In this document: positions 49,034 through 55,419 of the stretch, in pieces
How the letters are laid out: every line of letters begins with the position of its first letter
Numbering within the stretch: position 1 is the first letter of the stretch
IMG/VR virus record: IMGVR_UViG_3300010397_000014
Coordinates: 1 to 55,419 of that record
Reading direction: 5' to 3' (one strand)
DNA length: 55,419 bases
DNA from: a virus
Notes under the pieces: model-generated
Told to the model about the DNA's origin: nothing
Database searches by the model: none
What the model saw: the letters and a program-made list of their open reading frames with translations, nothing else
Made by a program: the position numbers and the translations under genes

Positions 49034-50038
49034 TCAGATGTCGGCTTCGGCTGGTTCAAGCACCATTTCGAGGTTCTGCTTGTCGAACCGATAGCCGGCG
49101 GCGCCAGCCTCGACGTTCTTGACCGCTTGCCGGAAGTAGCTGGGTTTCAATTCCGCACCGACAGCCTTGCGCCCAAGCAGCACCGGGATATAGACCTCGG
49201 AGCCGACGCCAGCGAACGGGGAGAACACGACCTCACCGGGGTTGCTGCGCAGCATGACGAAGCGCTCGATTACGTCCAACTGCAGCGGGTGGACGTGTTT
49301 CTCGTCCTCGCTGTCGCGCGCCTCCCGATACGGCAGCACGCGATCAAACCGGATGTCATCCCACATCGAATCGGCGTACTGTCTCCAGATCCAATGCGAG
49401 AAGCGGTTTTCGATCTGGTTGCCGGTCCAGCCGCGATACCGGATCACATCTGCGGGCGGCATGCGCTCGCCGGCATACTCCAGCATTCCAATGGGGTGGC
49501 GCACCGGTACCGGGTTCTTTCCCTTGCGCCGGAACAGCAGCAGGTAGTCCCCTGAGGCAATGCCGCAGTCGATGGAGTCGGCCACAAGGGACGCATGCGC
49601 CAGGTTCTTTTGCATTGTGCGCAGGCGAACCTCAAGCGGCTCTTTCCAGATCATGTGCCGGCCGGCGTACTCGAAGCCTTCGCGCTCGTGCAACTTGATG
49701 ATGTCGCCTGGAAAGTCGATATAACTGTCGGTGCCGCTGTTGCTGCGCGGGATGTCCATGCAGTGCACCGCCGACAGGCGCCCCGGCATGGTGATGCGGG
49801 CCAGCTCGCGCACGATGAAGGTGTACTGCTTGAAAAAGCCTTCGTAGCTGTCGCAGTTGGACAGGTCGCGCGGGTCGCTGCTGTAGACGTACAGCCCGCC
49901 CACGCCAGCCGAGGCGAACGGGGGCGAGTAGATTGACGCATGCACGCTGCCCGTGGGCAGGCCGCCCATGACGCTCATGCAATCGGCGTTATAAAGCGCG
50001 TACTTCTCGGTGATGACTTGATCCGCTACCGTAGCCAT
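49034..50038 (-). CDS. DNA methyltransferase (SPPF type)
   Basis: 334 residues. Motif IV is SPPF at 38-41, and the SAM-binding motif I is FSPFAGVGSEVY at 272-283 near the C-terminus, so the order IV then I indicates an N4-cytosine/N6-adenine amino-methyltransferase of the beta class. Motif X-like KPSYF follows at about 298. The target recognition region lies between. ATG at 50038 has GGAG at eight bases; it overlaps the helicase gene by 13 bases. It could modify phage DNA against restriction, perhaps with the helicase. Confidence 0.88.
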   Translation of the reverse strand: MATVADQVITEKYALYNADCMSVMGGLPTGSVHASIYSPPFASAGVGGLYVYSSDPRDLSNCDSYEGFFKQYTFIVRELARITMPGRLSAVHCMDIPRSNSGTDSYIDFPGDIIKLHEREGFEYAGRHMIWKEPLEVRLRTMQKNLAHASLVADSIDCGIASGDYLLLFRRKGKNPVPVRHPIGMLEYAGERMPPADVIRYRGWTGNQIENRFSHWIWRQYADSMWDDIRFDRVLPYREARDSEDEKHVHPLQLDVIERFVMLRSNPGEVVFSPFAGVGSEVYIPVLLGRKAVGAELKPSYFRQAVKNVEAGAAGYRFDKQNLEMVLEPAEADI

Positions 50039-51396
50039 TGCGGGCACTCCATTGGATTTGTGTGGTGGTTGACGCGCGCAATTCCTTGGGCGTCGTTCAT
50101 GTGCTGGATCAGCCGCGAAAACATCTCGTCGGCCTGCTTGGCTTTGCGCTGCAGGTTCCTGATGATTTCCTGCTGCCCTTCGGTGGTCACGGTGTCAACG
50201 CGCACCGGTCGCTTTTGCCCGAAGCGCCAGCAACGGCGCACGCCCTGGTAGCGCTGCTCGAACGAGTGCGAGGGGAAGTCAACGATGTGCGCGCAGTGCT
50301 GAAAATTCAGGCCCCATGCGCCTATCTTTTTCTTTGTGACGAGAACGCGGGCCTTGCCGTCCACGAACGCCAGCAGCTTTTCTTCTTTTTCCTCTGCGCT
50401 GTCTGAACCGCTGACCTGGACGCAATCGGGAATCATCTGCTCCAGCTCGTCGCCCTCGTCATTCAGGTCGCACCAGACCAGCGCGGGCTGGCCGGTGGGG
50501 TTCACTAGCTTGGCGACGGCCTCGCAGCGTTCCTGCACGGTGCGGCGCCGCTCTTCGCGCTGCTCTTTCAGGCCCACGGCCGGCAGTTCAAACAGCATGC
50601 CTTCGGCCAGCGTATTGGCCTTGATCAGCGTTTCGCGTTCGATCAGTTCCGGCAGGATGAATGCACGGTCCTGAAACCCCATGTCTGAGGGCTTGCGAAT
50701 CGCGTGCATCCACGAGCAGACCCATTGCCAGAACGGAACCTCGGCGTGCCCCTTCAGGCGCCACTTGATCACTTCCCCGCGCATGCGGCCCGTCGCCGAG
50801 TTGTTCAGATCGTTCTTGAAGAAGCGATTGAGCATGTCCATGTGGCCCAGGTAGCCCAAGGCCTCGGACGAGGTTCCAAGCTCAACGTAATCGTTCGGCG
50901 CGGCCGTCGCCGTCTCCAGCAGGCGGTACTCCACCTTGCGCATGAACTGCGTCACTTCGCCGCGGGTAGCGCCAGCAAAGGATTTGATGATTGAGCTTTC
51001 GCCGCACACCACGCCGCCGAAGTCGCCGGGGGTGAACAGGTGCAGGCGCTCATAGTTGGTCACGATGATGTGGCCCTTGCTGGAGCCGTCGCGCGAGATG
51101 CGGGCCTCGACGCCGAACTTGTCGGCCTCACGCACGATCTGCGGGCCGACCGCGCAGGGATTGAGGTACAGCACGGGCTTGCCGGTCTTGCGCGCCACGT
51201 TGGACGCCCACACCAGCGACATTGGGGTCTTGCCCAGGCCGCAGTCAGCGATGTTCGCCGCGCGCCCCTTGCGGATGGCCCATTCGGTCTTGACCGCCTG
51301 AAAGTCAAAGAGGAAATCCGGCATCCACAGCGGCTCAAACCCGTCTTGCGCGCCGGCCTGCGACTTGGACGCAAGGAATGACTCGTAGGTGTTCAT
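50026..51396 (-). CDS. SNF2/DEAD-type helicase with altered Walker B
   Basis: 456 residues. Motif I is IADCGLGKT (Lys56), motif III-like TATAAPNDY at about 163-170, motif V-VI region KKKIGAWGLNFQHC and QRYQGVRRCWRFGQ (381-394), so it is an SF2 helicase. Motif II should read D-E-S-S but here reads C-G-E-S-S: residue 132 is Gly (codon GGC at 51001-51003). That Asp normally coordinates Mg-ATP, so ATP hydrolysis may be lost. Paired with the methyltransferase gene, as in many phages. Confidence 0.85.
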   Translation of the reverse strand: MNTYESFLASKSQAGAQDGFEPLWMPDFLFDFQAVKTEWAIRKGRAANIADCGLGKTPMSLVWASNVARKTGKPVLYLNPCAVGPQIVREADKFGVEARISRDGSSKGHIIVTNYERLHLFTPGDFGGVVCGESSIIKSFAGATRGEVTQFMRKVEYRLLETATAAPNDYVELGTSSEALGYLGHMDMLNRFFKNDLNNSATGRMRGEVIKWRLKGHAEVPFWQWVCSWMHAIRKPSDMGFQDRAFILPELIERETLIKANTLAEGMLFELPAVGLKEQREERRRTVQERCEAVAKLVNPTGQPALVWCDLNDEGDELEQMIPDCVQVSGSDSAEEKEEKLLAFVDGKARVLVTKKKIGAWGLNFQHCAHIVDFPSHSFEQRYQGVRRCWRFGQKRPVRVDTVTTEGQQEIIRNLQRKAKQADEMFSRLIQHMNDAQGIARVNHHTNPMECPQWLR

Positions 51397-52122: not shown

Positions 52123-52409
52123 ATCGCGCGCTCCACCGGAGAGGGAGCCGGCCGTTTCATGCCTTTGACGTTGCCCAATCTGGAGTTGGCAAGTTTCAGT
52201 TCGCGTCGGCAGTGATCCACGTATGTTTCCGCATCATCCAAAAGGTGTGCGTGCGCCTGCTCCCACGTGTCGAAATAGCAGCGCCATTCGGACTGCTTTT
52301 TGACTCTGCGACCGCCAATCCAAACGGAGTTGTCTGTCTCGCGCTCGACTGTCTCCATCGTGATTTGCAGCCTGTTGTAGCGCGCGATGTAGAACTTGGT
52401 CAGGCTCAT
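52119..52409 (-). CDS. Hypothetical protein, 96 aa
   Basis: Front half is a beta sheet with KFYIARYNRLQITMETVERETDNSVWIGGRRVKKQSEWRCYFDTWEQAHAHLL, then a helix (AETYVDHCRRELKLANSRLGNVKGM). Looks like a conserved phage early protein. Function unknown. Confidence 0.65.
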   Translation of the reverse strand: MSLTKFYIARYNRLQITMETVERETDNSVWIGGRRVKKQSEWRCYFDTWEQAHAHLLDDAETYVDHCRRELKLANSRLGNVKGMKRPAPSPVERAI

Positions 52410-52792
52410 GCAACACTCCTGATGCCACCGCGCGCCTTCAGGTGCTCGATTGCCTTCATAGCGCGTTCCATCGTGTTGGCCGCGCCGCTGATCACTTCGA
52501 CCAGCTTCACCGCTTCATCCTCTGGCGCCTTGCGATCCGGCCGCGCGTGCAGCGTTTCATCGCAGGCGTGCATCAGCGGGTCGTACTGCTCGCAGTAGTT
52601 CATCAGGCGGATGACTTGCCCGAACGTAAGGCGCTGGTCCCCGGTGGGGCTGCAACACGTCTTGAGCTTGGCGTAGGCGCTCTCGGCCTTCATGTCGGGA
52701 AACATGAACGAGGCCACGTCGCCAAACTTCTTTCCGCTCTCGCCTATGGCCGTTGCGATCGCATCGAATTCATCGTCGTAAAAAAGCTTCAC
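52406..52792 (-). CDS. CII-like HTH regulator candidate
   Basis: 128 residues. KKFGDVASFMFPDMKAESAYAKLKTCCSPTGDQRLTFGQVIRLMNYCEQYDPLMHACDE resembles CII/CP76-like phage regulators (KLxNP...LTxxExxxIxxxTGD). Its place after the tR1-like terminator and before replication genes is the cII position in lambda. Predicted to switch between lysis and lysogeny, or to help replication; not shown. The tail is helical. Confidence 0.6.
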   Translation of the reverse strand: MKLFYDDEFDAIATAIGESGKKFGDVASFMFPDMKAESAYAKLKTCCSPTGDQRLTFGQVIRLMNYCEQYDPLMHACDETLHARPDRKAPEDEAVKLVEVISGAANTMERAMKAIEHLKARGGIRSVA

Positions 52793-53018: not shown

Positions 53019-53540
53019 TTAGGCCGAAGCCTGCGCAGTGATCGCGGGACCGTAGATTTCCTCGTACGTGACGAGGTGCCCGAGATCGGCGGCGTAGACG
53101 ATCAGTCTTTTCGCCGCGTCAGGAGGAATGGTCTGACCGCGCTCGTAGTGGCCCACGTTGCCTTGGGTGCAGCCCATGCCATCAGCCAATGCGGTTTGCG
53201 TGACGCCGAGGCGCTCGCGAATTACCCTGATACTGCTTATGGCGCTCGACGCCAGTTGCGTTGCGCACTGCTCGGCCCACTTGCAAACCTCATCGAAGTT
53301 GAGCCCGTCGAACCATTCGTTTTTGTTGCGACCCGATGCGGCAGCGGCGCACAACTCAATCAGCGCGGACTCAGCCGACAGGACGTGCGCGGCACATTCG
53401 ACCGTGTGCGATTCGTTCAGCAGGATTCCGAGACAGGAAACCCGCTCTTCGTGCTGCGCGATGCGCGAGGATGGGTCGCTGCTGCGGCCCACCTTCACGA
53501 AGCCATTGGAGAACCCGCAGACGTAGAGGAATTGGGGCAT
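53019..53540 (-). CDS. GIY-YIG (T5orf172-like) domain fused to Cro-type HTH
   Basis: 173 residues. Residues 1-85 are T5orf172/MUG113-like GIY-YIG: FLYVCGF (GIY part, Tyr6), GFVKVGRSSDPSSRIAQHE (YIG part VKVG 15-18, Arg26), SAESALIELC (Glu57) and NEWFDGL. Residues 104-160 are an HTH: IRVIRERLGVTQTALADGMGCTQGNVGHYERGQTIPPDAAKRLIVYAADLG (YdaS/XRE-like). This puts a nuclease-fold domain on a cro-like DNA-binding domain in the early regulator interval. Nuclease activity unproved. Confidence 0.85.
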   Translation of the reverse strand: MPQFLYVCGFSNGFVKVGRSSDPSSRIAQHEERVSCLGILLNESHTVECAAHVLSAESALIELCAAAASGRNKNEWFDGLNFDEVCKWAEQCATQLASSAISSIRVIRERLGVTQTALADGMGCTQGNVGHYERGQTIPPDAAKRLIVYAADLGHLVTYEEIYGPAITAQASA

Positions 53541-53546
53541 GGCGAC

Positions 53547-53819
53547 TCAGGCCGCTTTGCGATGTGCTTGTTTGCTGTCGGAAGCCGTGACGAGGCGAAG
53601 GTAGGCCCAGTCAACATCGGGGCGCATTTCCTCGCACTTCATCGCGCCCTCGAGCGCACGCTCAATGGAGGGGCAATACTCTGCGGGGATGCGGTTGCGC
53701 GTCCACGATTGAACCGTCTGGTAGCGGTCGATCTCGAGTTTGCGGGCCGCCTGTATTGGGCCGCCAAGCAGATTGACTGCATGCTGGGCGGCTTTGGCTG
53801 GGTCGAATTTGGCCGGCAT
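53547..53819 (-). CDS. Cro-like (YdaS-type) repressor
   Basis: 90 residues from the ATG at 53819 (AGAGGAAAC upstream). LLGGPIQAARKLEIDRYQTVQSWTRNRIPAEYCPSIERALEGAMKCEEMRPDVDWAYLR fits the YdaS/Cro family HTH (GGxxxAAxxLGVxxxTVQxWxxxxxIPAxxCxxIE). First gene of the leftward early operon, under the operator pair 53830-53862, the position of cro. Confidence 0.88.
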   Translation of the reverse strand: MPAKFDPAKAAQHAVNLLGGPIQAARKLEIDRYQTVQSWTRNRIPAEYCPSIERALEGAMKCEEMRPDVDWAYLRLVTASDSKQAHRKAA

Positions 53820-53829
53820 CGTTTCCTCT

Positions 53830-53862
53830 ACTAGATTTCCTAGTGATGCTAGACCATCTTGT
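53830..53862 (+). promoter_or_regulatory. Operator pair O1/O2 (15-bp palindromes)
   Basis: O1 is ACTAG-ATTTC-CTAGT (53830-53844); O2 is GCTAG-ACCAT-CTTGT (53848-53862). Their centres are 18 bp apart. O2 overlaps the -10 and spacer of the leftward promoter and O1 covers its start region. A weak rightward promoter for the repressor gene (TTTCCT at 53837, 17 bp, TGTATT at 53860) would overlap both. Confidence 0.8.
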
Positions 53863-53874
53863 ATTGGATTGCAA
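53846..53874 (-). promoter_or_regulatory. Leftward early promoter (PR-like)
   Basis: On the minus strand -35 TTGCAA (53869-53874), a 17-base spacer and -10 TAGCAT (53846-53851). It would start transcription near the YdaS/Cro-like gene at 53819, and it is overlapped by the operators. Confidence 0.78.
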
Positions 53875-53899
53875 GCCTCCGGGTGAAATATTCCTGGGG

Positions 53900-54394
53900 A
53901 TGCCAACCATTCACGACTTGATAAAGATCAAACGCAAGGCCAAAGGCTGGTCCATGGGCAAGCTCGCCAAGGAGGTGAGCGCGCGGGCCGGCGTTGACCC
54001 GCCCCTGGTGTGGCAGACCGTCCAACAATGGGAGGGCGGCGGCTCAGCCCCGAAGCGAAAGCTCTTGCCCATCGTGGCGCAACTGCTGGACACGAACGTC
54101 AATGACTTGCTCGAGGCCGCTCCTGCTGACGGCCCATCGGACATGGGTATTGAGCAGGCCGTTGAAGTGCTGGCCGAGGGCTTGATGGAGCTGCAGCAGA
54201 TTGATAGAGAAACCGCGGCAACCCTGCTCGGCGAGTTCGCCATAGCGCCAGAGGGAAAGTGGCGAGAGTGGCTGCTTGATCTACTGGCCGGCTCCAGTGC
54301 GCAGCCGCCACCGACAGAGCCTGACGCGATCATTTCGCGCATCATCCCGCGTCCAGATCAAGGAAAGCCGCACAAGCGCAAACCAAGGCGTTAG
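53900..54394 (+). CDS. CI-like repressor, HTH without peptidase domain
   Basis: 164 residues. Residues 1-72 are an XRE HTH: IHDLIKIKRKAKGWSMGKLAKEVSARAGVDPPLVWQTVQQWEGGGSAPKRKLLPIVAQLLDTNVNDL. Residues 80-130 are helical (IEQAVEVLAEGLMELQQIDRETAATLLGEF), perhaps for dimerisation. The end is pro/arg-rich. The S24/LexA autoprotease domain of lambda CI is absent. Divergent to the Cro-like gene and between two matching operator pairs. The ATG at 53900 has only GGGG close by; a longer frame opens at 53843. Confidence 0.8.
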   Translation: MPTIHDLIKIKRKAKGWSMGKLAKEVSARAGVDPPLVWQTVQQWEGGGSAPKRKLLPIVAQLLDTNVNDLLEAAPADGPSDMGIEQAVEVLAEGLMELQQIDRETAATLLGEFAIAPEGKWREWLLDLLAGSSAQPPPTEPDAIISRIIPRPDQGKPHKRKPRR

Positions 54395-54753: not shown

Positions 54754-54793
54754 TTGACGCTAGTTTATCTTGTGTTACTAGTTTCTCTAGTAT
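54754..54793 (+). promoter_or_regulatory. Operator pair O3/O4 and rightward early promoter (PL-like)
   Basis: O3 is GCTAG-TTTAT-CTTGT (54759-54773); O4 is ACTAG-TTTCT-CTAGT (54777-54791). Centres are again 18 bp apart, in mirror order to O1/O2. Promoter options: TTGACG (54754) with 17 bp to ACTAGT, or TTTATC (54764) with 18 bp to TAGTAT (54788). Both are covered by the operators. It drives the gene at 54862 and the early operon beyond the window cut. Confidence 0.75.
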
Positions 54794-54861: not shown

Positions 54862-55419
54862 ATGGCGAAGAAACAAGCGAAGGCGGAGTCGGTTCAATCA
54901 ACTGGGGCGGCGGCGGAGCCTGCTGCGGTCATCATGGCCTACAAGGGCTTCGACTCGCAACTGAAATGCCGCGACGTGCAGTACGCCGTGGGCCAGTCGT
55001 ACAGCATGGACGGCCACATTGCTGCATGCGAGCGCGGGTATCACGCCTGCGAGCATCCGCTGGACGTATTCAACTACTACCCCCCGGCAGGCAACCGTTT
55101 CGCGCTGGTTGAGCAATCCGGCGAGATCGCGCGCCATGACGGCGACACCAAGGTTGCCAGCTCGCGCATCCACATCAAGGCCGAGATCGACTTTGCTGGG
55201 CTGATCAAGGCGGCGGTTGATTACACCTTCAGCCGCGCCAAGCCGATTGATCCTGAGTCTCCGGCGCATGCCGCTGATGAATGCGGGCACGCCAGCGCCA
55301 CGGGCAACAGCGGTGCTGCATCGGCCACGGGCAACAGCGGTGCTGCATCGGCCACGGGCAACAGCGGTGCTGCATCGGCCACGGGCAACAGCGGTGCTGC
55401 ATCGGCCACGGGCAACAGC
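54862..55419 (+). CDS. Repeat-stalk early protein, N-terminal part (continues at 2-316)
   Basis: ATG follows AGGAGATC. The first 25 residues are Ala/Lys/Gln-rich. Residues 26-135 (AYKGFDSQLKCRDVQYAVGQSY, ACERGYHACEHPLDVFNYYPP, RFALVEQSGEI, SSRIHIKAEIDFAGLIKAAVDYTF) match the phage DUF7666 type domain. After DECGHAS it enters the nine-residue repeat A-T-G-N-S-G-A-A-S, still open at the window end. First gene of the rightward early operon. Function unknown. Confidence 0.85.
   Translation, partial: MAKKQAKAESVQSTGAAAEPAAVIMAYKGFDSQLKCRDVQYAVGQSYSMDGHIAACERGYHACEHPLDVFNYYPPAGNRFALVEQSGEIARHDGDTKVASSRIHIKAEIDFAGLIKAAVDYTFSRAKPIDPESPAHAADECGHASATGNSGAASATGNSGAASATGNSGAASATGNSGAASATGNS
55293..55419 (+). 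repeat. 27-bp tandem repeat array, right part
   Basis: Units start at 55293 (slightly diverged at its first codon), 55320, 55347, 55374 and 55401 (19 bases to the edge). Identical in sequence and frame to the array at 1-123. Confidence 0.97.

Follow-up and report, generated by a model that had tools for sequence, protein, structure and literature searches.

What does a protein that joins a nuclease-type domain to a Cro-type repressor do in the immunity region of a phage? Such a protein is encoded near one end of IMG/VR virus record IMGVR_UViG_3300010397_000014, whose complete 55,419 nt constitute the window that we analysed. The 173-aa product consists of a T5orf172 domain (GIY-YIG superfamily) and an in-frame Cro/XRE helix-turn-helix (HTH), and its gene begins 6 nt 3′ of the gene for the phage's own YdaS-type Cro (Table 1). 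The initial annotation had correctly placed it right behind a Cro-like gene and had suggested either a new type of lysis–lysogeny switch or a weapon against prophages with matching operators. The analysis partly supports this proposal, in that it favours the weapon and speaks against the switch.

Table 1 Features of the immunity region, in window coordinates
Feature	Position	Strand	Basis
T5orf172–Cro chimeric gene	53019..53540	-	ORF with ATG start, 173 aa; Pfam; codon-position divergence
T5orf172 (GIY-YIG superfamily) domain, residues 4–91; Tyr6, Lys16, Arg26, His30, Glu57, Glu75	53268..53531	-	Pfam, alignment; AlphaFold2 (AF2) order b-b-a-b-a-b-b
Complete Cro/XRE HTH, residues 101–173	53022..53240	-	Pfam, relatives, conserved residues
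Former cro start codon, ATG to ATA (Ile101)	53238..53240	-	Codon comparison with L014; stand-alone relatives start here
CII-like gene of the foreign cro–cII module	52406..52792	-	55% identical to L042 protein
YdaS-type Cro of the phage	53547..53819 (ATG at 53819)	-	YdaS_toxin 9.4e-18 (Pfam); phrog_35; same-place genes in nearly all 59 CI relatives
CI-like repressor, divergent	53900..54394	+	Pfam, PHROG; 59 viral relatives
Own OR array, CTAG/CTTG half-sites every 9 bp	53829..53862	.	Sequence inspection, CI relatives
Own OL array, same CTAG/CTTG half-sites every 9 bp	54759..54791	.	Sequence inspection, motif scoring

Two conserved domains in one reading frame

Both halves of the product exceeded the curated Pfam cut-offs (20 bits for T5orf172, 27 for HTH_31 and 23 for HTH_3): T5orf172 (PF10544) matched residues 4–91 at 24.4 bits, HTH_31 residues 105–146 at 32.3 bits and HTH_3 residues 104–140 at 29.5 bits. 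AlphaFold2 modelled two confident domains with a long helix between them (mean pLDDT 92.3 overall, 94.5 in the N-terminal domain). PHROG matches were to CII-like and repressor families, phrog_8130, a family of unknown function, aligned over both domains, and PADLOC returned matches to the HTH only. Because third codon positions carry most of the divergence in both halves, and because two relatives keep the T5orf172 half behind a cro gene, we judge that the chimeric gene is not a chance ORF.

The residues that characterize T5orf172 domains, namely the first Tyr, the Arg of helix 1 and the Glu of helix 2, are present as Tyr6, Arg26 and Glu57, at the positions that had been named from the initial reading. 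Tyr6, Lys16, Arg26, His30, Glu57, Glu75, Trp76 and Phe77 are invariant among close relatives of this half. Lys16 replaces the second Tyr of GIY-YIG, as does a Lys in all 30 of the other T5orf172 proteins that we aligned. A MAFFT alignment with distant T5orf172 proteins put the family Glu at Glu48, a candidate that we rejected in favour of Glu57 because Glu48 is not conserved in close relatives and sits in a predicted strand; Glu57 lies inside a predicted helix (residues 53–67). Foldseek matched the structure of this half to predicted viral T5orf172/GIY-YIG proteins and gave no significant match to any solved structure in the PDB, those of GIY-YIG proteins included. T4 endonuclease II headed a profile search with this half, weakly (E 0.78). 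We regard the domain as a putative cutter and infer cleavage from these features.

In Pseudomonas-type phages, the early region encodes unfused relatives of the nuclease half that are about 250–290 aa long, and the isolated phages searched contained one unfused relative. Among unfused T5orf172 proteins, those of L001 (L001:3773-4525), L004–L009 and L011 have a conserved C-terminal half of unknown function.

A Cro of another immunity type

The HTH half resembles stand-alone Cro proteins of other phages and not the phage's own Cro. About 50 viral contigs encode relatives of this half, with identities of up to 75%, as Cro proteins that stand alone; solved repressors matched it in Foldseek, and a divergent CI-like gene lies near, as in the Cro/XRE family. 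The stand-alone relatives inspected start at the codon that corresponds to residue 101 or a few codons from it. The cro DNA of phages L014 and L012 is 72–74% identical to this half, and similarity to the L014 gene starts 3 nt 5′ of its ATG, where the chimera reads GCC ATA AGC AGT ATC and L014 reads GCC ATG AGC AAT ATC. A comparison of 13 family members showed that the fused HTH keeps 22 of 23 family-invariant residues, the only loss being the initiator Met; the recognition helix (TQGNVGHYE) is the same in the chimera and L012. By its sequence, this half is an entire Cro and belongs to a different immunity type, that of L012. The fused HTH had originally been called YdaS/XRE, of which the XRE part holds, as Pfam gives an XRE/Cro type; the YdaS identity was rejected, since YdaS is the neighbouring gene.

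The phage's own operator arrays, OR and OL, lie on either side of cI. The CI family comprises 59 relatives on viral contigs (L103–L161), which have the same kind of CTAG/CTTG arrays, with half-sites every 9 bp flanking cI; neither the T5orf172 half nor the fused HTH was found within 3 kb in any of the 59. As these relatives combine arrays and, in nearly all cases, YdaS without the chimera, we assign the CTAG/CTTG operators to the CI/YdaS module and consider the chimera an accessory gene of the immunity region. The reading of overlapping 9-bp arrays by CI and YdaS proteins looks undescribed. Elsewhere in the window, an N6/N4 DNA methylase gene adjoins a phage-type helicase gene in the early operon (49034–51396), and a DUF7666 gene (phrog_4433) is followed by collagen-like SATGNSGAA repeats (54862–55419). 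An identical 27-bp tandem array occurs at both ends of the record (1–123 and 55297–55419; 100% matches, 4.6 copies each), inside the SATGNSGAA-repeat gene, and assembly of this array may therefore have created what looks like a terminal repeat.

At the DNA level the region is a mosaic, with best identities that are mostly 64–83% and extend over separate pieces. Positions 53606–54057 are of the CI/YdaS type (L106 and L107), 53275–53533 match the T5orf172 sequence of L092, 53050–53243 match L012/L014-type cro, whose start codon marks the junction, and 52510–52635 match the cII gene of the L042/L043 type. L042 and L043 are themselves phages that carry a Cro of the fused-HTH type, in L042 as a stand-alone protein. 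The T5orf172 domain sits exactly at the joint of the CI/YdaS module and a foreign cro–cII module. Two related readings fit this mosaic, capture of the Cro as a guide, on the pattern of RepA in Odn, and module replacement of the homing type; each presupposes a nuclease directed at operators of the L012 type.

Predicted targets lie in other phages

The DNA upstream of stand-alone cro genes in the fused-HTH family contains as many as three palindromes of 17 bp, at about −75, −50 and −25, that conform approximately to TAnTAGCGssCGCTAnTA (86 sites from 30 phage loci). We learned this motif with a score threshold and scored all sites leave-one-out. Over the 30 phages, the best site per phage had a median of 16.1 bits and the three top sites summed to a median of 42.4. 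The window's own operators, in which this Cro would be expected to find its cognate sites, scored 4.7, −2.1 and −9.5 bits in OR and 9.7, 2.1 and −0.6 bits in OL, and the 95th percentile of random 110-mers was 7.1 bits. Measured against relatives and random sequence, the own OR lacks the motif, and the only match among the own operator sites, a weak one, is in OL (54776–54792), where self-binding is thus possible. The best matches in the whole window were eight copies of a 12.2-bit site in the SATGNSGAA repeats, spread over both ends; about 0.5 such copies are expected by chance, and they are probably a coincidence.

A switch acting on the phage's own operators had at first seemed likely, since these share CTAG arms with the fused-HTH family; we rejected it once leave-one-out scoring with the 30-phage motif left the own OR without the family sequence. 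The idea of a weapon fits these results: the Cro is foreign, its motif is clear in other phages and missing from the own OR, and ICP1 Odn provides a precedent (PMC8263062).

The layout recurs with different HTHs

A T5orf172 domain directly behind cro, with a divergent CI-like gene, was also found in L010 (a Dechloromonas MAG) and L092 (a viral contig), where the T5orf172 half is 45–58% identical to that of the chimera. The HTH fused in L010 is of a different type and matches phrog_6831/6223, the family of the stand-alone Cro in L092, and the own Cro of L010 groups with the window's YdaS type (phrog_8008, phrog_409 and phrog_35). The L092 contig ends inside an apparent YdaS-like HTH, tentatively assigned and probably a third type. 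The layout is thus known from three examples, that of L092 incomplete, across which the catalytic residues are conserved and the HTH type changes. Too few relatives of the L010 HTH type were found to derive its operators.

The search for this architecture, as proposed at the outset, yielded L010 and L092 with the same layout and no case in the isolated phages searched. The architecture is rare: fused members occurred in 1 of 399 genomes of the order and 1 of 349 of the family sampled, both being the L010 genome. PF10544 itself was present in 47 of 369 genomes, and a Cro-type HTH was seen in none of 30 PF10544 proteins inspected by eye. Genome searches for hosts common to the two phage types found L012-type Cro in 3 of 399 genomes and the CI type in none. 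The literature that we searched describes no T5orf172–Cro fusion. The model of the chimera has structural matches among uncultured-phage entries with the names HTH_XRE or MUG113, which could include further cases.

Discussion

The reading that we favour, to which we give about even credence, is that the chimera is an early-expressed, site-specific endonuclease that resembles ICP1 Odn and is directed against phages of another immunity type. The early operon of the phage would express it after the YdaS-type Cro, and it would use the C-terminal L012-type Cro as the aiming part and the N-terminal T5orf172 domain as the cutter. The predicted binding sites are the three 17-bp operators, about 25 bp apart, upstream of cro in L012-type phages and prophages, where a nick or cut would remove the rival's control region. 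The phage's own genome would be spared, because its OR lacks the L012-type motif. Binding, cleavage, self-sparing and a benefit to the phage are all inferred.

The main competing account, which we consider unlikely but serious, is a homing-type nuclease at a module boundary. Such an enzyme would cut L012-type operators, and repair from the phage that bears the nuclease would put the CI–YdaS–T5orf172 module in place of the cI/operator region of the L012-type phage, up to the cro start codon, so that the target is lost; spread and exchange of immunity, not killing, would be the selected effect, and the cro fusion would mark the exchange point. The DNA mosaic, joined at the start codon of cro, the disappearance from the own OR of the L012-type operators expected upstream of the foreign cro, and the description of T5orf172 genes as homing endonuclease genes at exchange boundaries (PMC10448857) all agree with this. 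Moreover, as the CII-like gene also derives from a phage with an L012-type Cro, the HTH may have been left behind by the replacement of a module instead of being captured under selection. However, homing needs flanking homology on both sides, and DNA comparison found no phage with the same two flanks and no insert. The layout also recurs behind unrelated cro genes, which argues against a single replacement scar. Because it recurs with different HTHs at the same position, we slightly favour capture of the Cro as a guide.

Less probable still is a DNA-binding regulator, a second Cro or a CII, that tunes lysis and lysogeny through the own OL and OR with a T5orf172 domain that is inactive or serves binding or dimerization. 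Its position in the immunity region, the CII-like and repressor PHROG matches and the weak OL site would suit such a role, as would the example of I-TevI, a GIY-YIG enzyme that is also an autorepressor (PMC2988022). Yet in a regulator one would expect recognition of the phage's own operators to be preserved, whereas the three phages share the catalytic residues and differ in HTH type. The switch at O1–O4 that the initial annotation envisaged finds little support: these sites belong to the CI/YdaS module, score 2–10 bits against a median of 16 for the best real site per phage and lack the motif in OR, and the gene is missing from all 59 CI relatives. The protein may in addition regulate through OL in a secondary role, given that I-TevI represses at a site that it does not cut. 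Finally, a chance in-frame fusion from recombination that has no present function, or an assembly error, is very improbable, for although the junction falls exactly at the module boundary, the frame is intact, divergence in both halves is third-position-biased, every invariant HTH residue except Met is kept and the layout recurs in two further records.

If the favoured reading of an operator-directed nuclease is extended to all three phages, they could represent a recurrent class, a suggestion that we put forward tentatively and with less than even confidence. In it, temperate phages would keep a T5orf172 cutter joined to Cro proteins of other immunity types behind cro, destroying rival operators and driving the replacement of immunity modules, with Cro as an exchangeable guide in phage–phage conflict. 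Temperate phages are known to exchange their mosaic immunity types, for reasons that are not settled. A nuclease guided by a rival's Cro, at the joint of two immunity modules, would be a concrete agent for it, and the target sequence of this putative nuclease is predicted in advance.

Comparison with known systems

The HTH half is 38–39% identical to ST64T Cro and is in this respect like the Cro repressors of lambdoid phages, of which Salmonella phage L / ST64T is an example; the chimera differs from them in its fusion to a nuclease domain, the loss of the start codon and its presence as a second Cro beside the phage's own YdaS-type protein. With the T5orf172 homing endonuclease genes of phages it shares the domain family, modular DNA-binding parts and a position at an exchange boundary (PMC10448857). 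In that survey, 87% carry CapR, DUF723 or DUF4397 zinc-finger binding domains, and we did not find a Cro HTH described there. I-TevI is similar in having a GIY-YIG-type N-terminal domain, a linker and a C-terminal DNA-binding part with an HTH, and as a homing endonuclease and autorepressor it is a binder that can cut or repress; it differs in being intron-encoded, with a zinc finger and canonical GIY-YIG motifs, whereas the chimera combines the T5orf172 subtype with a whole Cro (PMC2988022).

The closest parallel is the origin-directed nuclease Odn (gp88) of ICP1, a demonstrated T5orf172 nuclease aimed by the DNA-binding domain of a rival (PMC8263062). Both proteins combine a T5orf172 domain with a DNA-binding domain that has its relative in a rival element. 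Odn, which is active as a nuclease, keeps the Arg and Glu and lacks the helix-1 His/Tyr; its binding domain, the RepA_N of the PLE satellite, is N-terminal, and it cuts a replication origin (PMC8263062). The chimera has a C-terminal Cro, a predicted operator target, a putative activity and a carrier that is probably a temperate phage. If our reading is true, the Odn principle, seen once, between a lytic phage and its satellite, would apply also where temperate phages compete with one another.
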